Shown here: positions 1-17,235 of the stretch, piece after piece | How the letters are laid out: the number at the start of each line of letters is the position of its first letter | Position numbering within the stretch: position 1 is the stretch's first letter | NCBI RefSeq assembly: GCF_039525035.1 | Contig: NZ_BAAAHE010000001.1 | Span: 9,255-73,254 of the forward strand | Source of the DNA: Sporichthya brevicatena | GTDB lineage: Bacteria; Actinomycetota; Actinomycetes; Sporichthyales; Sporichthyaceae | Direction: 5' to 3' | DNA: 64,000 nucleotides | Translations under genes and position numbers: made by a program | The notes under the pieces: model-generated | Told to the model about the DNA's origin: nothing | The model's input: the letters and a program-made list of their open reading frames with translations, nothing else | Databases searched by the model: none

Positions 1-123
1 GGCGGCGGCGGCGACCTCGGCCTCCGGGTTGCGGTTTCCGCACCCGGTGAGCGAGGCGGTCAGCGCCAGAGCGAGCAACGCCACCGCGCTGCGCGTGACG
101 CGACCTGACCTACTGCGAGACAT
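1..123 (-). CDS. ABC transporter substrate-binding lipoprotein, N-terminal fragment
   Basis: The window edge cuts this gene. Only 41 codons are visible: a basic N-terminus (MSRSRSGRVTR), a hydrophobic stretch and the lipobox LTGC at about residues 26-29, followed by GNRNPEAEVAA. The start ATG lies 14 bp inside the 3' end of the fused permease gene, so the two are co-translated. The segment after the lipobox cysteine resembles that of the binding protein at 5959-7452 (CGNR, then a P and VAA), which suggests a paralogous branched-chain-amino-acid-type binding protein. The ligand is unknown. The lipoprotein call is from visible sequence; the ABC role is inferred from the adjacent permease. Confidence 0.75.
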   Translation of the reverse strand, partial: MSRSRSGRVTRSAVALLALALTASLTGCGNRNPEAEVAAAA

Positions 124-2092
124 CGACGAGCTCCTTCTGGTCGTGCTGGGGGTGAGGACGGTGGGCGTCGGCACGCCGGGCGGACCGCGGCGAACGCCAG
201 TTGCGGTCGAGCGTGCGCACCGTGCGCCGGTTGGACCCGGCGCGCCGAGCGGGCTCGGTCAAGCTGGCCTTGATCCGCTCGACGAGGTCGATCTGACTGG
301 CCGCCACCAACGCGGCGACGATGGCCAGCGCACCGAACGCCGCCGTCTGGTAGTTGCCCGAGTCGTCGGGCAGGTAGGACGGCATCACCGTCAGCAGTCC
401 GGCCGCGAGGACCGAGGACCGGATCAGCTGGTTGCCGGTGATGGCGAGGACTGCGACCCACAGCAACGACTGCAGAGAGCCGAGGCCACCCGCACCCGCC
501 GCCTGCGCACCGGTCGCGATGACCGCACCGGCGACACCGGCGAAGAACGCGGAGATCGCGAACAGCAGTACGAGGGTCGTCGTCGTCCCGGTGCCGTAGG
601 TGGACAGCGCCAGCGGCGAGTCCGCCAGGGCGCGCAGCAGGCGGCCGAGCCGGGACCGTTGCAGGACGACGATGCCCGCGATGCAGGCGAGCAGCACGCC
701 GACCGCGACGTAGAAGTACTGCCGGTCGTCGGCCACGCCCACGCCCGGCAGGTCCGGCCGCGGCGCGTCCCGCCGGGCGTTGACACCGAACATCCAGGAG
801 GACCGGTAGACGAGGTTCTCCAGCAGGACGCCGAAGCCGAACGTCGCGAGCGCGAGGTAGATCCCTGACAGGCGAATCGCCGGCAGGGCGAGGATCACCC
901 CGATCGGCAACGTGATCAGACCGGCGCCGAGCAACGCGAGAAACCAGGGCAGTCCGGCATCCACGCTGAGGCGGCTGAACGCGACCGCGCCGACCGCGAC
1001 GAACGCGGCGTGACACAGCGAGACCTGGCCGGCGACCTTCACCAGGAGACCGAGCGACAGGAACATGATCGTGAAGCCGACGGCGTTGATGTAGACCGGC
1101 AGCTTCGTCCCGACCAGGTCCGGCAGGACGATCACCACCGCGAGGGCGGCGGCCCCCGCCGTCACGCTGACGCCCTTCGGCGGGGCGGTGAACCGCTCCA
1201 ACTGCGGGCGACGGACCAGCGGAGCGGTCGGCAGCCCACGGCGTCCCACGATCAGCAGGACACCGAACAGCACGATGAACGGGACACTTGACGGGAGACC
1301 CTGGAACTGCGGGTGCGACGCGGCGTACTTCTGACCGAGCGCCGCGAGGACGCCGATGATCAGACCGCCGGCGAACGTCCAGGGCAAATTGCGGAACCGG
1401 CCGATCGCCGCGGCACCGAACGCCTGGACGACGAGGGCCGTGAGGCGGATCGGGTCGAGGCCGAAGGTCGGTGCGATGAGCACGCCGGACAGCACCGCGA
1501 CGCCGCCGCCGATCATCCAGGCCAGGCGCCGCACCTGGGCGGCGTCGAAGCCCGTCATCTCGATCAGTTCGGGGTCGTCGACGACACCGCGCATCGCGAT
1601 GCCGAGGCGGGTCCGCGTGAGCAGGACAGCGAGACCGGCGCTGACCGCCACACCGACACAGGTGATGATCAGCTGGTCGTAACCGATGTCCACCGCGAGG
1701 TGGAACGTGTTCGTCGGCAGGAAGTCCTCGGTCGTGAACGTCGCCGCGCCGTACCGAATCGTGGCGATCGCCTGGATGATCAGCAGCGGACCGATGGTCG
1801 CCACGACCACGACCGCGACGGGTGCACGCGTCAGCCGGCGGGCCAGCAACTCGAGGAGAACACCGAGTGCGGCGCCGAGTCCGACGACACAGATCACCAT
1901 GGCGATCGGCCACGGGATGTCGTTGCGGACCTGCAGCTCGTAGAACAGGTACGCACCCGCGGTCGCCATCGCCCCGTGGGCGAAGTTGAAGACGCCCGAC
2001 GTCCGGTAGGTCAGGACGAGGCCGACACCGGCCAGGCCGTAGACCGACCCGGACACGATGCCGATGACGATGAACGGCAGGTACTCGTTCAT
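110..2092 (-). CDS. Fused LivH-LivM-type ABC transporter permease
   Basis: A 660-residue polytopic inner-membrane protein. The first ~290 residues look like a LivH permease (start MNEYLPFIVIGIVSGSVYGL, then the typical YRTSGVFNFAHGAM stretch). The second half, from about residue 315, looks like LivM (KVAGQVSLCHAAFVAVGA, then LPAIRLSGIYLALATFGFGV). Two permeases that are normally separate subunits are therefore joined in one chain, with a basic, hydrophilic C-terminal tail of about 50 residues. The start overlaps the upstream small membrane protein by 4 bp (ATGA), and the 3' end overlaps the binding-protein gene. No ATPase genes lie on this side; they may lie beyond the window edge. The substrate is unknown, since LivHM-type permeases carry amino acids, urea, aromatic acids and other compounds. 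Confidence 0.85.
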   Translation of the reverse strand: MNEYLPFIVIGIVSGSVYGLAGVGLVLTYRTSGVFNFAHGAMATAGAYLFYELQVRNDIPWPIAMVICVVGLGAALGVLLELLARRLTRAPVAVVVVATIGPLLIIQAIATIRYGAATFTTEDFLPTNTFHLAVDIGYDQLIITCVGVAVSAGLAVLLTRTRLGIAMRGVVDDPELIEMTGFDAAQVRRLAWMIGGGVAVLSGVLIAPTFGLDPIRLTALVVQAFGAAAIGRFRNLPWTFAGGLIIGVLAALGQKYAASHPQFQGLPSSVPFIVLFGVLLIVGRRGLPTAPLVRRPQLERFTAPPKGVSVTAGAAALAVVIVLPDLVGTKLPVYINAVGFTIMFLSLGLLVKVAGQVSLCHAAFVAVGAVAFSRLSVDAGLPWFLALLGAGLITLPIGVILALPAIRLSGIYLALATFGFGVLLENLVYRSSWMFGVNARRDAPRPDLPGVGVADDRQYFYVAVGVLLACIAGIVVLQRSRLGRLLRALADSPLALSTYGTGTTTTLVLLFAISAFFAGVAGAVIATGAQAAGAGGLGSLQSLLWVAVLAITGNQLIRSSVLAAGLLTVMPSYLPDDSGNYQTAAFGALAIVAALVAASQIDLVERIKASLTEPARRAGSNRRTVRTLDRNWRSPRSARRADAHRPHPQHDQKELVDVSQ

Positions 2093-2346
2093 CCGAGCGC
2101 CTCGACGTCGGCGCCGTGCACCCGCTGGACGCGGTTCCGCACGGTGCGCCGGTAGAGCACGAGATAGACGGCGCAGGACGCGAGCACCACGATCTCACCG
2201 ACGATGCCGACGTTCAGCGCCGTCAGTTGGTTTTCGTACCGAAGCTCACCGCTCGCGTCGACCCACGACAGACCTATCAGCAGCAGGCCCACAACGATCA
2301 GCACGGCGAACAGCGCCGGGCGCGGCCGTCCGTCCCGAGAGGTCAC
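2089..2346 (-). CDS. Small two-TM membrane protein of unknown function
   Basis: An 85-residue protein with two predicted membrane helices (about residues 12-28 and 44-64) joined by a short loop containing SWVDASGELRYENQLTALN. It starts at GTG, overlapping the previous stop by 4 bp, and ends in an ATGA overlap with the permease gene. The loop motif (D/GASGE-x-x-x-x-NQL) recurs in the next gene upstream (GASGEVYIANQLPYL), so the two are probably divergent duplicates or paired subunits. I recognise no family. The position inside a translationally coupled operon points to a role with the AveC-like, surface and ABC proteins. Confidence 0.7.
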   Translation of the reverse strand: MTSRDGRPRPALFAVLIVVGLLLIGLSWVDASGELRYENQLTALNVGIVGEIVVLASCAVYLVLYRRTVRNRVQRVHGADVEALG

Positions 2347-2708
2347 GTACGCACCCGCTCGTGCTGGGCCGCGCCGTTCAGGAGGCCGGAAAGGTGGGAG
2401 ACGTGGAGCTCGAGCTCACGGACACGGTTCGCCAAGGCCGCGTCCGACTCCGTCGCGCGCGCGGAGTCGAGGCGGTCGAGCGTCCGCCACTCGTCGCTGA
2501 GGTCGGCGGAGAGCCAGAGCGTGGCGCCGACGCCGATCAGGGCGAGGCCACCCAGTCCGCCGGAGAGCAGGTACGGCAACTGGTTGGCGATGTAGACCTC
2601 GCCGCTGGCGCCGATCCATCCGGCGACCAGGACGACGGCGCCGAGGACCACGAGGACAGCTCCGACGATGCGGTCCCACTGCAGCTTGAACCAGGGGATC
2701 AGCTCCAT
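2343..2708 (-). CDS. Small membrane protein with C-terminal helix, unknown function
   Basis: A 121-residue protein beginning MELIPWFKLQWDRIVG. It has two hydrophobic helices (about residues 13-32 and 48-66), then a polar, possibly coiled-coil tail (WRTLDRLDSA through RVRELELHVSHLSGLL) that probably faces the cytoplasm. The start is inside the last codons of the upstream surface-protein gene (10-bp overlap). The inter-helix loop shares GASGE-x-x-x-x-NQL with the following 85-residue protein. No known family was recognised. Confidence 0.7.
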   Translation of the reverse strand: MELIPWFKLQWDRIVGAVLVVLGAVVLVAGWIGASGEVYIANQLPYLLSGGLGGLALIGVGATLWLSADLSDEWRTLDRLDSARATESDAALANRVRELELHVSHLSGLLNGAAQHERVRT

Positions 2709-3979
2709 GAGCGTCTCACTCCCACAACCCAACGCGTTCCGACGCTGACGAGGACAAAAAGAAGGGCGCCACCCGCGAGATACGGGTAGGCGCCCAGAGA
2801 CGGGAGCGACACTGCGCCCGGCTGCGTGTTGGCCAGGACGAAGGTCTGCGTACCCGGCGGGGTGACGGGCGCGACCCCCGTCGGCAGGACGCCGGTGCCG
2901 ACGCCCGGGATGACCGGCGCCGCGGCGACGGTGTCGACGCCGTCGACCGGGGACGCCGGCGCGGTGACACCGGAGGTGCCGTTGTCCGCGCTCCCCGCGG
3001 TGCCCTCGGCGACCGGAGCGGAGCTCCCGGTCGCCTGTGCGAAGGACCGACCGATCACGAAGTCGGTGACCACGGTGCGTCCGACCGGAGCCGGGACGTC
3101 CATGGGCGTGGTGATCTGCAGTCCCGGCGCCAGGACGGAGTCGTCGGTGCTGGTGGCCTCGACGTAACGGATCGTCGTGTTCCCGACCGTCAGCGACTTC
3201 TGCGCCGGGTGCACCGACCCGACGAGGCTGACGCCCTCCTCCGTCACGGCCACGCCGACGCCGTTGACGGACAGGCTCGAGACCTGAAAGTCGGAGTTGC
3301 GGACGACCTTGCCCGCGTTGTCGATGACGACCTCGGCGCGCGAGACCGCGCCGTGGATCGCAACCACGCCGATCTGCAGGTCGAGCCGGGACTCTGCCGC
3401 GGAGACGAAGTTGTCCGCGCTGCGCACGACCTCGGCGGTGGCGAAGGCACCGCCCTCGTCCGTGCTCGGCGCGAGCCGCGCACCGGCCTGCGCGACCGAG
3501 CGCGCCTCGCGCTCGTGCGCGACCGAGTCGAGGTGGTACCCGGGCTGGTCCAGGCTCACTTCCTGGGCGCTCGGGTACTGGCTGGTCACGACGAACGGAT
3601 AGGTGGGGACGGGCTTGCCCGACAGCGTGCCCGCCAGACCGGGCGCCGCGACGGCGAGGTCACCGGGGTACGGGAACGACGCGAAGCCGGTGCTGGACCC
3701 CAGCGAGTTCAGCGCGGCCTGGGCCGTCGGACCGCCGCCGTTCACGAGGTTCTCGATGATGAGGAAGCGCGGCAGGGCGGCCAGGAAGTAGGCGGCGTTG
3801 GCCGAGGCCTGGCCCTGGTACGCGCTCAGCGTCGTGGTGCTGCTCGGCTCCGCCGTCGCGGAACCGAGCGCACTGCTCGTCGGGAGCAGAGTGACCAGCG
3901 CGGCGGTGGACACCGCCGCCGCGCCGGTCATCGCTCGCCGCACTCGCCGCGGACGGCGCCGGTGGCTGCGGGTCGTCAC
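2699..3979 (-). CDS. Secreted surface protein with C-terminal membrane anchor
   Basis: A 426-residue protein. A very basic N-terminus (RSHRRRPRRVRR) precedes a hydrophobic signal segment ending near SSALGSATAEP. The mature part is rich in Ala/Val/Thr/Ser, with beta-type repeats such as SRLDLQIGVVAIHGAVSRAE. A Pro/Thr/Ala linker follows, then a C-terminal helix (YLAGGALLFVLVSVG) ahead of a short basic tail, so it is anchored by its C-terminus. The start is the GTG that overlaps the upstream AveC-like stop (GTGA); an earlier in-frame ATG would read through that gene. The layout resembles actinobacterial 'choice-of-anchor' surface proteins, but I cannot assign a function. A role in presenting or capturing a ligand for the downstream ABC importer is inference. 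Confidence 0.7.
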   Translation of the reverse strand: MTTRSHRRRPRRVRRAMTGAAAVSTAALVTLLPTSSALGSATAEPSSTTTLSAYQGQASANAAYFLAALPRFLIIENLVNGGGPTAQAALNSLGSSTGFASFPYPGDLAVAAPGLAGTLSGKPVPTYPFVVTSQYPSAQEVSLDQPGYHLDSVAHEREARSVAQAGARLAPSTDEGGAFATAEVVRSADNFVSAAESRLDLQIGVVAIHGAVSRAEVVIDNAGKVVRNSDFQVSSLSVNGVGVAVTEEGVSLVGSVHPAQKSLTVGNTTIRYVEATSTDDSVLAPGLQITTPMDVPAPVGRTVVTDFVIGRSFAQATGSSAPVAEGTAGSADNGTSGVTAPASPVDGVDTVAAAPVIPGVGTGVLPTGVAPVTPPGTQTFVLANTQPGAVSLPSLGAYPYLAGGALLFVLVSVGTRWVVGVRRSWS

Positions 3980-5124
3980 TGCGTCTTCACCGCCGGGGCG
4001 ACCGGGATGGTCGTGCCGTCGGGGACGACGAGCTTGCCGTCGGGGCCGACACGCAGGGACGACTCGCCCCGCGGGATCGGCAGGTCCGGGTTCGGGCAGG
4101 CGACGTCCGTGCCGGCCCCGCAGTAGCCGTTGATGAAGTAGGACCGTTCCTGCACGTCCTGCGGCCACGCGTCACCGCGCTGCGAGATCAGCGCGTTCGG
4201 CAGGTGGTAGAAGACGAAGAAGATCGCGGTGACCGCACCCGAGACCGCGAAGAACCGCATCGCACCCTTGACGCGCTTCGAGACGCTGAGCCGGTCGATG
4301 CCCGCCTCGGCGAACGAACGGCCCTGGTCGTCGCGGAAGAAGCGCAGCGCGCCCCAGCTCGTGTAGAGCAGGCTCGCGGTGATGCCCTGGTAGACCGGGA
4401 AGCCGTAGTAGTGGCCGTGGTTCAACGTCAGCCAGCTGATGCTCGCGCCGTACTCGTGCGAGCCCATGACCATGAAGGCCGCTTCCCACATCGTGCCGAC
4501 GACCATCATCGGAATGAACGCGACGGCGCAGAGGCCGATGGCGCTCATGCTCGGGTAGCGCTCGCGGGTCTTGCGCATGATCGTCGTGACGATCAGGACC
4601 ATCAGGAAGAACGCGCACGTGTAGACACCGGGCAGCCAGAGCAGCGGCTGCGGGATCTCCTCGGCGTTGGGCGACATCCAGCCGGGGGTGTGGCCGATCC
4701 ACGAGCCGGCGTTGATGAAGTACGTGTTGTAGTTGAAGCCCGGCGAGAAGTAGTTGTAGAGCGGGTCGGACCACCACATCAACGAGAACGAGATGACGAT
4801 CAGACCGTCGAGCGGGACCGACCCGGTCCGGCGCCAGGGAAGGATCGCCTTGAACAGGATCAGGGCGAGCATCCCCGCGAACAGGCCGTACTGCTGCACG
4901 CTCAGGCAGATCTTCATCCAGGTCGGGAGCGGGGTCTCGCCGGTCCCGACGCGGTGCGGTTCGCCGGCCACCAGCCAGGCGATGATCAGGTACGCCGCGA
5001 AGGCGAGGAAGCCGAAGCCGAGCGCCGCCCACCAAGAGATGGGGCGGACACGCTTCGGCGCCGCCGGCGCCACCGGACGCGAGGCGTCCAGTGAGCTGCG
5101 CGGCGGCAGATGTGTGGTGGCCAT
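3976..5124 (-). CDS. AveC-like (spirocyclase AveC family) polytopic membrane protein
   Basis: A 382-residue protein with about eight membrane helices and conserved aromatic/charged motifs between them (WWSDPLYNYFSPGFNYNTYF, WIGHTPGW, NHGHYYGFPVY). Length and layout fit the actinobacterial proteins annotated as the AveC family, whose founder acts in avermectin spiroketal formation and dehydration. Most chromosomal members have no known substrate, so a cyclase or hydratase activity here is only a family-level guess. The C-terminal ~60 residues are hydrophilic. A strong ribosome site (GAGGAGG) precedes ATG 5124. It is the first gene of a six-gene operon running to the left and is divergent from a TetR gene. 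Confidence 0.65.
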   Translation of the reverse strand: MATTHLPPRSSLDASRPVAPAAPKRVRPISWWAALGFGFLAFAAYLIIAWLVAGEPHRVGTGETPLPTWMKICLSVQQYGLFAGMLALILFKAILPWRRTGSVPLDGLIVISFSLMWWSDPLYNYFSPGFNYNTYFINAGSWIGHTPGWMSPNAEEIPQPLLWLPGVYTCAFFLMVLIVTTIMRKTRERYPSMSAIGLCAVAFIPMMVVGTMWEAAFMVMGSHEYGASISWLTLNHGHYYGFPVYQGITASLLYTSWGALRFFRDDQGRSFAEAGIDRLSVSKRVKGAMRFFAVSGAVTAIFFVFYHLPNALISQRGDAWPQDVQERSYFINGYCGAGTDVACPNPDLPIPRGESSLRVGPDGKLVVPDGTTIPVAPAVKTQ

Positions 5125-5185
5125 GCAGGGGCCTCCTCAGGAGTTACGGGAGTCGACGCGCGCCTTGCCGTGGTCCGCGGCACTT

Positions 5186-5208
5186 GATAGACAGACACTA
5201 TGTCTATC
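5186..5208. promoter_or_regulatory. Perfect inverted repeat, probable TetR operator
   Basis: GATAGACA at 5186-5193 and TGTCTATC at 5201-5208 form 8-bp perfect arms with a 7-bp spacer, in the 135-bp divergent gap between the AveC-like operon and the TetR gene. TetR-family regulators commonly bind such sites next to their own gene, so this is likely the shared operator for both transcription units. Confidence 0.65.
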
Positions 5209-5958: not shown

Positions 5959-7452
5959 TCAACCCTTGCCGAAGCACTCCACCTTGGAGCCGGCGGGGGC
6001 GGAGAAGCCCTTGGTGTCGAGCTTGATCGGGTAGTAGCACTCCAGAGCCTTGGCGGTGGTGCCCTTGGTGAAGGTGGCGCCAGGGCTGAGGCCGTCGAGC
6101 TTCTCGTTCTTCAGCTGCCACAGTCCGTCGAGGATGGTGGTGGTGCTGACGTCACCGGCGCGGGCCTGGTCGGCGACCTTGGACAGTGCGGCCTCGAAGA
6201 GCTTCCCGGCGGTCCAGCCGAGCAGGGCCTGCTGCTCCTCCTTCGTCGAGGGGGCGAAGCGCTTGAACGCGTCGTGGAACGCGCGGATGCCGGGGGTGTC
6301 GGTGGTCATGAACGGCACGACACCGTTGCCGAGATACATGCTGTTGCGCTGGACGCCGGGGTCGGCCGCCACGGCGGCGCTGACTCCGACGGCTCCGGTG
6401 GCGATCGTCGGGAAGTAGTTCAGCGACGCGCACGAGCGGACCGCGCGGATGATCGCCGACCCGTCGAGCCCGAGGAACAGCGTGTTCACCCCGGCCGACT
6501 TCATCGTCTGGCACTCGGAGGTGAAGTCCGGCTGGGTCAGCGACACCGCCTGGATCGGGCCGAGCGCCGCCTTCGCCAGTTCGGTGCTGCGTGGGAAGCC
6601 GTTCTTGATCGCCGAGCAGATCGAGGCCTCGACGCAGTAGAAGAGCCCGGTCTTGGGTGCCCCCTGGGCGTTGCGCGCGGCCTGAACCAGCGCGCCGTCG
6701 TTCGCCGTCAGGGGGGCCGCGCCGGGCGGGAAGAGGTAGGGGCTCTGGACCCAGTCGCCGGCGACGACGTCACCGCCGACGACCGGCACCTTGTCGCGCT
6801 CGGCCGCGGTGCGCAGGGCGGCGATCGCGATCGGGACGCCGGCACCGACGACGGCGACCGCGCCCCGATCCTTCACGAGCGTGTTCCAGTTCGAGGCGAC
6901 GCGCGCGGGGTCGGAGGCGTCGTCGAGCTGGATCAACTGGATCGGGTGGCACTGCACGCCACCGCGGGCGTTGACGTCCTTCGCCCAGACCGCCAGACCG
7001 GTCCGGAGGCCGGCGATCGAGGCCCCGACCAGACCGGAGGTCGCCAGCGTCTGCCCGATGACGATCGGCTTGAGCGGCGCGGTGCACGGCCGGCTCCCAC
7101 CGCCCGCCGCGGCGCCCGGCGGCGCCGGGTTCTGCCCACCGCCCGGCCGCGGCGCGGTGGTCGCACCCGGCTGGGTGGGCGCGCCGCCGGCGCCGGAGCT
7201 CGTCCCCGGAGCAGACGTCGCCTGCGCCCCGGGGACGGCGGCGCCCGGGTCCGCACGCGCGTCCGCACCCGGCACCGCACCGGGGGCGACCGGACCCCCG
7301 GCCGCGTTGTCGGACTGCGCGTCGACCGGGCCGTAGCCGTTTCCGACGGCCGCGACCTGCTCGTGCGGCACGCGGTTGCCGCAGCCGGCGGTGAGGGCGA
7401 GAGCGCCGAGAAGCGCGGCCGCTGCCACTCGGCGGGTTCGGCGGTTCAACAT
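5959..7452 (-). CDS. ABC-type substrate-binding lipoprotein (branched-chain amino acid type)
   Basis: A 497-residue lipoprotein with signal MLNRRTRRVAAAALLGALAL and lipobox LTAGC. A long Pro/Ala/Gly-rich linker of about 90 residues follows, then a type-1 periplasmic-binding fold (PIVIGQTLATSGLVGASIAG; GVQCHPIQLIQLDDASDP; VGAGVPIAIAALRTAAERD). ATG 7452 is chosen because AGGAGG sits 7 bp upstream; the longer open frame lacks such a site. It lies 49 bp downstream of the TetR gene that ends the cysD-cysNC-tetR string, so it may share that transcript. No permease is adjacent. It may work with the fused permease of the first operon, whose own binding protein begins similarly, but that is inference. 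Confidence 0.88.
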   Translation of the reverse strand: MLNRRTRRVAAAALLGALALTAGCGNRVPHEQVAAVGNGYGPVDAQSDNAAGGPVAPGAVPGADARADPGAAVPGAQATSAPGTSSGAGGAPTQPGATTAPRPGGGQNPAPPGAAAGGGSRPCTAPLKPIVIGQTLATSGLVGASIAGLRTGLAVWAKDVNARGGVQCHPIQLIQLDDASDPARVASNWNTLVKDRGAVAVVGAGVPIAIAALRTAAERDKVPVVGGDVVAGDWVQSPYLFPPGAAPLTANDGALVQAARNAQGAPKTGLFYCVEASICSAIKNGFPRSTELAKAALGPIQAVSLTQPDFTSECQTMKSAGVNTLFLGLDGSAIIRAVRSCASLNYFPTIATGAVGVSAAVAADPGVQRNSMYLGNGVVPFMTTDTPGIRAFHDAFKRFAPSTKEEQQALLGWTAGKLFEAALSKVADQARAGDVSTTTILDGLWQLKNEKLDGLSPGATFTKGTTAKALECYYPIKLDTKGFSAPAGSKVECFGKG

Positions 7453-7501
7453 GAAAGCGTCCTCCTGGGGCAGTGGTGCGGTGCGACGGCCTGAGGGGGC
7501 G

Positions 7502-8131
7502 TCAGGTGAGTCCGTCGAGCACCAGTCGCACGGTGTGGGCGGCAATCTGTTCCGGCGTGGTCAGCCGCTGGACGGCGGGGTAGGACCCCGAGAGCGACCG
7601 CAGGTTCGTCAGCCCGAAGAGCAGCGCGAACGTCGACGCCATGGCGAGCTCGGCGTCCAGGTCGGGGTCGATCTCGTCCACGATCTCGGAGAACAGCGCG
7701 AGGGGCTCGGCGAACAGCCCGCGGTCGAGCAACTGGGGCATGTCCGACCGCGGCGTGAGCACCTCGCGGTTCAGCAGTCCACGGAAGATCTCGTTGTCCA
7801 CCAGCGCCCGCAGGTACCAGGTCAGCAGGAGCTCCAGCCGCTCCCGGGCCGGCCGAGCCGGGTCCCGCGTCTCCGGCGGGATCACCGAACGGCCGCCGAA
7901 CGCGCGCTCGACGACCGCGGCGTAGATCGCGTCCTTGCTCGCGAAATGGTGGTACAGCGCACCGACGGCGACGCCCGCACCGGCCGCGATCTCCTTCGTG
8001 GTGACGGCATCCAGGCCGCGGCGGGCAAACATCTCCTCGGCGGTGTCGAGGATCCGCTTCTCCGTCGCGACGGCGTCGCGGACCCGCTTGACGCGCGGGG
8101 CGGGCGCCTCGGTCGTGGTGGGCTCGCTCAT
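7502..8131 (-). CDS. TetR-family transcriptional regulator
   Basis: A 209-residue regulator with a clear TetR HTH at about residues 24-70 ([40 protein letters not shown]) and a C-terminal helical sensor domain. Its ATG overlaps the cysNC stop by 4 bp (ATGA), so it is translated with the PAPS-forming enzymes. The palindrome in the cysD/DUF1214 divergent promoter (10982-10995) is the obvious candidate site, giving autoregulation of the sulfation module. The effector is unknown. Confidence 0.88.
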
Positions 8132-10056
8132 GCGCGGAGTCCCGTCCGGTTCAGGTACTCGACGACCTGCGTCGCCGCGGTCTCGGCGTCGACCTCGGTG
8201 GTCCGGACGTGGACCTCGGGGTCCGCGGGCGGTTCGTAGGCCGAGCCGGTCCCGGTCAGGTTCGGCAGCTCACCCTGCGCCGCCTTGCGGTACAGGCCCT
8301 TGCGGTCCCGGGCCGCGGCGACCTCGAACGGGGTGTCCACATAGACCTCGACGAACTCGCCCTCGGCCACCTTTGCGCGGACCTGATCGCGCTCCTCGGC
8401 GAAGGGGGAGATCAGCGAGACCAGGACGACGATCCCGGCGTCGGCCATCATCGCGGCGACCTCGCCGACGCGGCGGATGTTCTCGATGCGGTCGGCGTCG
8501 GTGAAGCCGAGGTCCTTGTTCAGACCGTGGCGGACGTTGTCGCCGTCGAGCAGGTAGGTGCGGACACCCTCGGCGTGCAGGCGCCGCTCGACCAGGTTGG
8601 CGAGCGTCGACTTGCCGGCGCCGGAGATACCGGTGAACCACACGACCCGGGGCCGGTGGCCGGCGAGCGCCGCGCGGGCCTCCCGGTCGACGTCGACTGC
8701 CTGCCAGTGCACGTTCGTCGAACGCCGCAGGGCGAAGTGCAGCAGTACCGCGCCGACGGTGTTGTTGGTCAGGCGGTCGATCAGGATCCCGCCACCGAGG
8801 TTGCGGTCCTGCGTGTACGGCTCGAACGGCACGGCCCGGTCGAGGGTCAGCGTCGCGACGCCGATCTCGTTGAGTTCCAACGTGTTCGCCGCGACGTGGG
8901 CGAGGGTGTTGACGTCGACGCGGTGCTTCGGCGGCGACACCGTGGCACCGACCGTCCGCGTGCCGATCTTGAGCAGGTAGTGCCGGCCCGGAACCAGTGC
9001 CTCCTCGGCCATCCAGACCACGTCGGCCTCGAACTGGTCGGCCACCTCGGGCGGGTTCCCGGCGGCGGCGAGGACGTCACCGCGACTGACGTCGATCTCG
9101 TCGGCCAGCGTGAGAGTCACCGACTGGCCGGCCTCGGCCGCGGGCAGCTCGCCGTCGAGGGTGTGGATGCCGGCGACGGTGGTGGTCTGCCCGCCCGGGA
9201 GGACGCGGATCTCGTCCCCAGGGCGGATCCGCCCGGCGGTGAGCTGGCCGGCGAAGCCGCGAAAGTCCAGGTCCGGGCGGATGACGGTCTGGACCGGCAT
9301 CCGGAAGGCCGCATCGGCGGTGAGGTCCGGGACCGGCACGTTCTCGAGGTGCCCGAGCAGGGTCGGACCGTCGTACCAGGGCGTGTTCTGAGACTGCGTC
9401 AAGATGTTGTCGCCGAGCAGCGCGGAGGTCGGGATCGTCGTCACGTCCTCCAGGCCGATGCTCGCCGCGAACTCGCGGTACTCGGCGTCGATCGCGGCCA
9501 CCCGGTCCTGGTCGTAGCCGATGGCGTCGACCTTGTTGATCGCGAGCACGACCTGGCGGATCCCGAGCAGGGAGACCAGGTAGGAGTGCCGTCGAGTCTG
9601 GGTCAGCACGCCCTTGCGGGCATCGATGAGGATCACCGCGAGGTCCGCGGTGGAGGCGCCGGTGACCATGTTCCGGGTGTACTGCTCGTGTCCCGGGGTG
9701 TCGGCGACGATGAACTTGCGCTTGTCGGTGCTGAAGAACCGGTACGCGACGTCGATCGTGATGCCCTGCTCCCGCTCGGCCGCGAGCCCGTCGACCAGCA
9801 GCGCGAGGTCGAGCTCGCCGCCCTGCGTGCCCATCGTGCGACTGTCGGCGGTGACGGCCTCGAGCTGGTCGGAGAAGATCTGCTGCGACTCGTAGAGCAG
9901 ACGTCCGATCAGCGTCGACTTGCCGTCGTCCACCGACCCGCAGGTGATGAACCGCAGCAACGTCTTGTGCTCGTGCCGGTGCAGATAGGCGTCGATGTCG
10001 GTGGCGGCGAGGTCCAGGTCGGCGTTCTGCGCCTGCTCCGTCAGGGGAGTGCCCAT
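8128..10056 (-). CDS. cysNC: Bifunctional sulfate adenylyltransferase subunit 1 / APS kinase
   Basis: A 642-residue fusion. The N-terminal CysN GTPase carries the P-loop GSVDDGKST (about residues 40-48), [12 protein letters not shown], and NKVD, with beta-barrel domains after it. The C-terminal APS kinase begins near residue 470 with a second P-loop, GISGAGKST. With CysD it makes APS and then PAPS from sulfate and ATP. The start ATG overlaps the cysD stop (TGATG). No CysH, CysI or other assimilatory reductase is nearby, whereas a sulfotransferase is divergent from it, so the PAPS made here is probably used as a sulfonate donor. The last codons overlap the downstream tetR by 4 bp. Confidence 0.95.
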
Positions 10057-16254: not shown

Positions 16255-17235
16255 GTGGCCGTCCTCGCCGAAGAGGTACGCCCGGACGTCACCCGGCGCC
16301 CGGTCCCCAAACCGCGCCTGATTCTCGGGGCCGCCGCGGCCGGAGCGCTCGTCCTCACGATCCTGATGACGGCGAAGAAGGGCCCCGAGGGCCGGATCCT
16401 CGCCGACCGGCCGGCGGAGACGTGGCCGCAGCTGTGGGGCTACGACCACTGGATCTCCACTGTCCAGATCGCGACGCTGATCGCCACCACGTCGTTCCTC
16501 GCGTACTTCACCGTCTGGTCGCGCCGGAACGCCCGCCTGCACCCCGCGTTCCCGGTGCTCGCCGGCCTGTTCGTCATGGGCGCGTTCGCCGACACGTTCG
16601 CGAACTGGACCTCGTCCGCGGCGATGAACCCCGAGCTGCTGCACTACCCGACGGACTGGCCGATCCTCGACGTCTCCCCGACGACCGAACCGATCATCAA
16701 CAAGGTCGCCTACCCCTACCTGTTTCTCTTCCCGGCGCTCGCGGTCGTGACGCTGCTGCGCCGGCGCGCCCGCAGGACCGGACGCTCGCCGCGGCGCCCG
16801 CTGTGGACGGTCTTCGGCATCACGTTCGTCATCGCGGTCCTGATCAACTGGGTGCTGGTCAACCTCTTCATGTGCCGCATCGAGTACTGGACCTACACCC
16901 AGATCCCCGACTGGGCCGCGGTCCGCGGCGGAACGCCCTGGCAGTACTCGTGGCACGACCCGCTGTCGCTGTCGTTCATCACCGCGGCCGCCGGCGTCCT
17001 GCTCTGGATCAGCTACTCCCGCGACACCCGCGCCCTGAAGCAGTTCGGCGTCACCGTGCTCGTCACGGCGATCGCTTATCTCCCCTACAACGCCGTGTGG
17101 GCGTCGTTCCGCCTGACCGACAGCGGCGACACGCTCGCACCCTGGATCTACGAGAACACGAAGGTCTACGACCCCAAGGGTGACTACGCCGAGGCCGGGG
17201 TCCCCGGTCCCTACTTCAAAGGAATCTGGCCATGA
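16255..17235 (+). CDS. AveC-like polytopic membrane protein
   Basis: A 326-residue protein with about seven or eight helices. Features shared in position with the AveC-like protein at 3976-5124 include an acidic/aromatic segment after the third helix (FADTFANWTSSAAMNP), a central WTYTQIPDWAAV loop and an extended hydrophilic C-terminus (ENTKVYDPKGDYAEAG). The family is named for avermectin AveC, but no activity is known for most members. GTG 16255 is preferred because GGAGG precedes it; TTG 16219 lies inside the palindrome. Its stop overlaps the next gene's ATG (ATGA), so the two are co-translated. Confidence 0.6.
   Translation: MAVLAEEVRPDVTRRPVPKPRLILGAAAAGALVLTILMTAKKGPEGRILADRPAETWPQLWGYDHWISTVQIATLIATTSFLAYFTVWSRRNARLHPAFPVLAGLFVMGAFADTFANWTSSAAMNPELLHYPTDWPILDVSPTTEPIINKVAYPYLFLFPALAVVTLLRRRARRTGRSPRRPLWTVFGITFVIAVLINWVLVNLFMCRIEYWTYTQIPDWAAVRGGTPWQYSWHDPLSLSFITAAAGVLLWISYSRDTRALKQFGVTVLVTAIAYLPYNAVWASFRLTDSGDTLAPWIYENTKVYDPKGDYAEAGVPGPYFKGIWP

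Follow-up and report, generated by a model that had tools for sequence, protein, structure and literature searches.

What is known of the uptake of insoluble compounds such as sterols and terpenes by actinobacteria comes mainly from the Mce systems. Mce4 is the sterol uptake transporter, according to work cited in PMC8399759. Liv-type importers in catabolic clusters are known as well: in two plasmid examples of the Liv/HAAT type, on pRHL2 of Rhodococcus jostii RHA1 and in Streptomyces sp. NBC_00564, they lie beside beta-oxidation genes and TetR regulators. Here we describe an operon of Sporichthya brevicatena that combines a Liv-type ATP-binding cassette (ABC) importer with a surface protein and two small membrane proteins, MP1 and MP2. 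It opens a stretch of 64,000 nucleotides (assembly GCF_039525035.1, contig NZ_BAAAHE010000001.1, positions 9,255 to 73,254 of the forward strand), which at its full length we call the window. Permease family, ATPases, binding protein and catabolic surroundings are shared with the two plasmid examples. By annotation, however, those carry no genes for the surface protein, MP1 or MP2, and their permease is a LivHMG fusion, whereas LivG is separate from LivHM here.

The LivHM permease, the binding lipoprotein, LivG and LivF make up the gene set of a Liv-type transporter, which the genes for surface protein, MP1 and MP2 constantly accompany. The conserved machine comprises the surface protein, MP1, MP2, LivHM, LivG, LivF and the binding protein; an AveC-like protein is an accessory of the window copy. 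Judging from sequence, we think it reasonably probable that the window operon is a specialised copy of an amplified, surface-assisted Liv-type ABC importer with three extra components for hydrophobic catabolic substrates. Its features, in window coordinates, are the following:

1..123, minus strand, continuing leftwards to position 7823 of the contig (C1:7823, locus L009): start part of the substrate-binding lipoprotein; MSRSR...LTGC lipobox read in the sequence
110..2092, minus strand: LivHM, fused Liv-type permease of 660 amino acids; BPD_transp_2 (PF02653)
2089..2346, minus strand: MP2, with two transmembrane segments; C-terminal HxxxC...CxxC domain lost in the window copy, according to alignments and the LivHM tree
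2343..2708, minus strand: MP1, with two transmembrane segments and, in alignments, conserved QWDR and SADLRDEW motifs
2699..3982, minus strand: surface protein with signal peptide, beta-rich ectodomain, disordered linker and C-terminal transmembrane helix
3976..5124, minus strand: AveC-like polytopic membrane protein of 382 amino acids, first gene of the operon; PF17198
5132..5137, minus strand: AGGAGG ribosome-binding site read in the sequence, 7 base pairs (bp) ahead of the AveC ATG
5186..5208, no strand: putative operator palindrome GATAGACAGACACTATGTCTATC, one of two sites of its motif in the genome
5260..5871, plus strand: TetR-family regulator, divergent from the operon; TetR_N, E = 1.1e-08

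A conserved cassette around LivHM

The original prediction read this region as a six-gene chain on the minus strand, with overlaps of 4 to 14 bp, starting from one strong ribosome site and facing a TetR gene across a perfect palindrome. Our gene calls agree: from AveC through surface protein, MP1, MP2 and LivHM to the lipoprotein, successive genes overlap by 7, 10, 4, 4 and 14 bp, and both the ribosome site and the opposed TetR gene are where they were expected. An alternative start of the surface gene is possible at 3931. LivHM matches PF02653, the BPD_transp_2 family of Liv/HAAT-type importers, in two stretches (E = 2.6e-48), and matches the LivH, LivM, UrtB and UrtC models weakly. A masked run of N (L009, about 9056-9254), directly left of the window edge, interrupts the binding-protein gene; in G396, the second genome of the genus, the protein is intact with 484 amino acids. 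The remaining part (C1:7823-9055) is a relative of the window protein at 5959-7545 (iterated profile, E = 1.7e-140), which carries the periplasmic-binding fold expected of an importer lipoprotein (Peripla_BP_6, E = 4.3e-38). That latter gene codes for a lone Liv-type binding lipoprotein adjoining the operon's TetR, its start overlapped by a further TetR gene at 7502-8131; it is possibly a second receptor for the window importer.

A single-protein search of the S. brevicatena genome with LivHM separated 32 close permeases (above 320 bits) from 12 clearly more distant Liv-type permeases (below 170 bits). A surface-protein gene lies within 6 kilobases (kb) of every close permease and an MP1 gene within 6 kb of 31 of them; relatives of these two occur near just one of the 12 others, a split LivH/LivM system with divergent versions. 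Profiles tell the same numbers from the other side, with the MP1 profile finding 31 proteins and one divergent member, and the surface profile 32 and a further two that are divergent or weak. Surface or MP1 matches range from 14 to 34 per genome within the family, and MP1-like matches were found in 32 of 396 genomes sampled across the phylum. The split system (L133, G000:C5, 2206-8640) encodes a binding protein, LivH, LivM, LivG, LivF, a divergent surface protein and an MP1-like protein, and may resemble the form that preceded the LivH-LivM fusion.

Gene order agrees at about 32 loci of the same genome and, in other actinobacteria, at most of 43 named loci, which belong to Sporichthya, Frankiales, Acidimicrobiia, Streptomyces, Actinophytocola, Haloechinothrix and Nocardioides, with one metagenome bin labelled Acidobacteria. 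The usual order is surface protein, MP1, MP2, LivHM, LivG, LivF, with the binding protein ahead or behind; in one clade the surface gene follows LivF instead. The overlap between MP2 and LivHM measures exactly 4 bp at 54 of 68 loci. When pairwise protein distances are compared, those of the surface protein correlate with those of LivHM (r = 0.86), also among the paralogues of this genome alone, and the values for LivHM and its binding protein are comparable (0.84 and 0.80). Together these are strong signs, at the level of sequence, that the trio belongs to the transporter; co-duplication contributes to them.

An ordinary amino-acid or urea importer, with the three extra genes as co-transcribed envelope proteins duplicated along with it, would be compatible with the permease's scores to the LivH, LivM, UrtB and UrtC models, and co-duplication alone could have kept such genes together. 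We consider this explanation unlikely: the trio goes with one permease clade (32/32 or 31/32) and is absent from 11 of the 12 other Liv-type permeases, 32 copies would be odd for amino acids, and the neighbouring genes are catabolic.

Several cassettes show local variants. At L051 (G000:C16, 12209-18999) the cassette is followed by five tandem binding-protein genes, the last one leaving the fetched stretch, so that a single permease may serve several binding proteins. MP1 and MP2 are naturally fused into one 293-amino-acid protein at L054 (G000:C19, 9614-10495). Behind each of three Streptomyces cassettes lies a related gene (L062:15846-16970, L065:16069-17151, L091:16132-16977); its L062 copy matches a lytic-transglycosylase domain (SLT_2), and the product could make an opening in the wall for the surface protein.

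Operators, distant ATPases and AveC

The palindrome at 5186-5208 consists of perfect 8-bp arms, GATAGACA-N7-TGTCTATC, and is identical in G396. The contig extends 9,254 bases leftwards of the window; genes there were called by a simple purpose-written caller, and individual start sites may be off. After the binding protein, on the same strand, come a secreted protein of 181 amino acids, a VWA-like protein and a MoxR-type AAA ATPase. Next, on the opposite strand, stand an amine-oxidase-type flavoprotein (the oxidoreductase), a second AveC-like protein (AveC2) and a second TetR (TetR2, C1:3661-4296, 44% identical to the operon's TetR). Finally, on the minus strand again, the contig ends with LivG and part of LivF, the two ATPases that the original prediction had proposed to look for beyond the left edge and that indeed lie about 9 kb past it, behind the same kind of operator. 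LivG (C1:140-961) has the ABC_tran domain and the branched-chain C-terminal signature BCA_ABC_TP_C; LivF, cut off by the contig end, is complete in G396. The whole block is syntenic in that one-contig genome, with protein identities of 87-98%.

The divergent LivG/flavoprotein promoter holds GTGTCTATTATAGACACGATGTCTAT, made of the same half-sites as the palindrome. Exactly two places in the 5.2-megabase genome, the two operators, carry the pattern ATAGACA-N1-9-TGTCTAT, as do the two corresponding places in G396, while a reversed control pattern has zero occurrences in the whole 5.2-megabase genome; the motif is therefore not due to chance. Since the second operator lies between LivG-LivF and oxidoreductase-AveC2-TetR2, the distant ATPases and the AveC2 operon are tied to the window importer. 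One or both TetRs would bind these putative operators, and the related pair may govern two divergent promoters: one for AveC, surface protein, MP1, MP2, LivHM and binding protein, the other for LivG-LivF and oxidoreductase-AveC2-TetR2. The idea of one tightly coupled machine under TetR-type control is upheld by this arrangement and by the surface-MP1-MP2-LivHM order kept across the phylum.

The secreted 181-amino-acid protein (L009:7249-7794) belongs to a small family that recurs by the cassettes L045, L054, L060, L067, L090 and L096. A MoxR AAA gene with a CbbQ_C domain and a VWA-like neighbour is found in the window cluster and at two other cassette loci (L097; L082, the same as L124). NorQ/NorD and CbbQ/CbbO are such MoxR-VWA pairs (PMC9976466). 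The likeness lies in the ATPase, with clear AAA_5 and CbbQ_C domains, placed next to a VWA-like protein; the partner here differs in that its VWA_2 match (E = 0.082) stays below the cut-off.

AveC is known as the spirocyclase/dehydratase of avermectin biosynthesis (PMC13303154; PF17198). The window protein belongs to the same Pfam family, far above the cut-off (E = 1.3e-50, 172.5 bits against 26.6), and is syntenic and 97% identical in G396; unlike its avermectin namesake, it accompanies an importer and an oxidoreductase. Five AveC-like genes are present in the S. brevicatena genome: three in the window region and two at a distance of about 9 kb from LivHM genes in other cassettes. The third gene of the window region, at 16534-17022 (C1:25788-26276), occupies the corresponding relative position in G396. 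A cassette of Sporichthya sp. MGR_bin378 (L082/L124), not sister to that of the window, has AveC directly ahead of its surface gene and MoxR and VWA genes nearby. Because AveC directly precedes the surface gene in this second, non-sister cassette, it is a recurrent but non-constant accessory partner and not an accident.

The original prediction proposed to look for the six families co-occurring in this order. The surface-MP1-MP2-LivHM part does recur across Actinomycetota, but most cassettes have no AveC close by, and its place as a defining member is not supported. AveC, surface protein and importer could still form a single dedicated polyketide- or lipid-processing machine; AveC heading the operon, AveC2 behind the second operator and the MGR_bin378 cassette with its MoxR and VWA genes speak for it. 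With five AveC genes for 32 cassettes, most of which have none inside the fetched flanks, such an AveC-centred pathway appears improbable. Taken as a whole, the earlier interpretation is supported in part, for the coupled, TetR-controlled machine but not for AveC as a defining member.

Surface protein, MP1 and MP2

None of the three companions of LivHM has a Pfam match above cut-off, and no meaningful one was found among 22 paralogues of the surface protein. In its AlphaFold2 model residues 50-325 mostly exceed a predicted local distance difference test (pLDDT) score of 90, residues 326-395 form a low-scoring linker, predicted to be disordered and rich in Pro, Gly, Ala and Thr, and a C-terminal transmembrane helix follows at 399-421. 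Structure comparison of the ectodomain matched outer-membrane barrels at low scores, which we do not take as evidence of a barrel (best Z 6.0, spanning 103-124 residues at 5.9 Å; Foldseek TM-scores of about 0.1-0.2). Searched against PDB sequences, the surface profile gave no match and the MP2 profile three at chance level.

Four of 58 surface-family members match the choice-of-anchor P model (NF040603) at E <= 0.1, the best at 8.7e-5; the window protein and most members of the family do not match it, and the name choice-of-anchor P was not found in the papers searched. This weak kinship, together with the anchored-ectodomain layout, would suit a sensory or adhesive system, with a surface protein that attaches to particles or surfaces and a transporter that imports only the released product. 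We give this little credence, as the tight overlap and the co-variation with the permease are unusual for an adhesin.

MP1 and MP2 have two transmembrane segments each. In the MP2 model a long second helix leads to a separate folded C-terminal domain bearing the HxxxC...CxxC motif, which is nearly invariant over 59 MP2 sequences; the domain presumably binds a metal and sits in the cytoplasm. The motif is reminiscent of the zinc site of Ada-type domains; no tool result backed the likeness, and we do not claim it. Foldseek matches of the model were dismissed as helical chance matches. The domain is absent from the window copy, from its sister on contig C5 and from the G396 copy, in the LivHM tree a single loss event; L127 lost it separately.

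Proposed substrate class and mechanism

The 145 cassette-neighbour proteins of this genome gave 36 hits to luciferase-like oxygenases, cytochromes P450, CoA ligases, short-chain dehydrogenases/reductases or acyl-CoA dehydrogenases, against 13 hits for 145 proteins from 12 other regions (pooled p = 0.0002; most single families do not reach significance). Also found near cassettes are members of the enoyl-CoA hydratase, thiolase, ChsH2-type and linalool dehydratase/isomerase families. These enzymes fit the catabolism of hydrophobic or CoA-activated compounds as a class; they single out no substrate of the window importer. In view of these neighbours it is possible, as first suggested, that a lipid- or polyketide-like molecule is imported and processed.

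Several observations weigh against a surface-assisted importer of hydrophobic compounds. One LivHM, on contig C17, has neither MP1 nor MP2, so these two may not be essential; co-duplication could yield the distance correlation without physical contact; fold matches of the surface model (Foldseek/VIA-align) are weak and ambiguous; and the control regions of the neighbour comparison were hand-picked.

The importer, as we read it, probably helps the cell to feed on organic compounds of poor solubility. Anchored in the cytoplasmic membrane through its C-terminal helix, the surface protein would reach with its flexible linker into or through the cell wall, catch such a compound and hand it over to the binding lipoprotein and the permease. 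MP1 and MP2 would act as two-transmembrane companions of LivHM, and the cytoplasmic metal-site domain of most MP2s may couple to the ATPases or regulate them. Each cassette copy would serve its adjoining catabolic gene set; for the window copy, AveC and the oxidoreductase may modify the imported molecule.

The likeness to Mce lies in this proposed role, the passage of hydrophobic compounds through the actinobacterial envelope by way of extra surface components; the permease type differs. Mce itself was rejected as the window system: all six MlaD matches of the genome fall in one other cluster, on contig C19. Literature searches, with subscription literature outside their reach, found no description of the surface-MP1-MP2 trio. 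More tentatively, the cassette might represent a new ABC importer architecture of single-membrane bacteria, in which a wall-spanning, membrane-tethered beta-domain protein and a two-transmembrane pair with a metal-binding cytoplasmic domain act as dedicated extra subunits supplying hydrophobic substrates to a Liv-type permease: a counterpart of Mce, multiplied about thirtyfold per genome.

Three nameless protein families gain a functional context here, and because the copies adjoin different catabolic genes, a substrate could be guessed for each copy in turn. A second class of importer, so far without a name and including three uncharacterised families, would explain a large share of actinobacterial uptake capacity.

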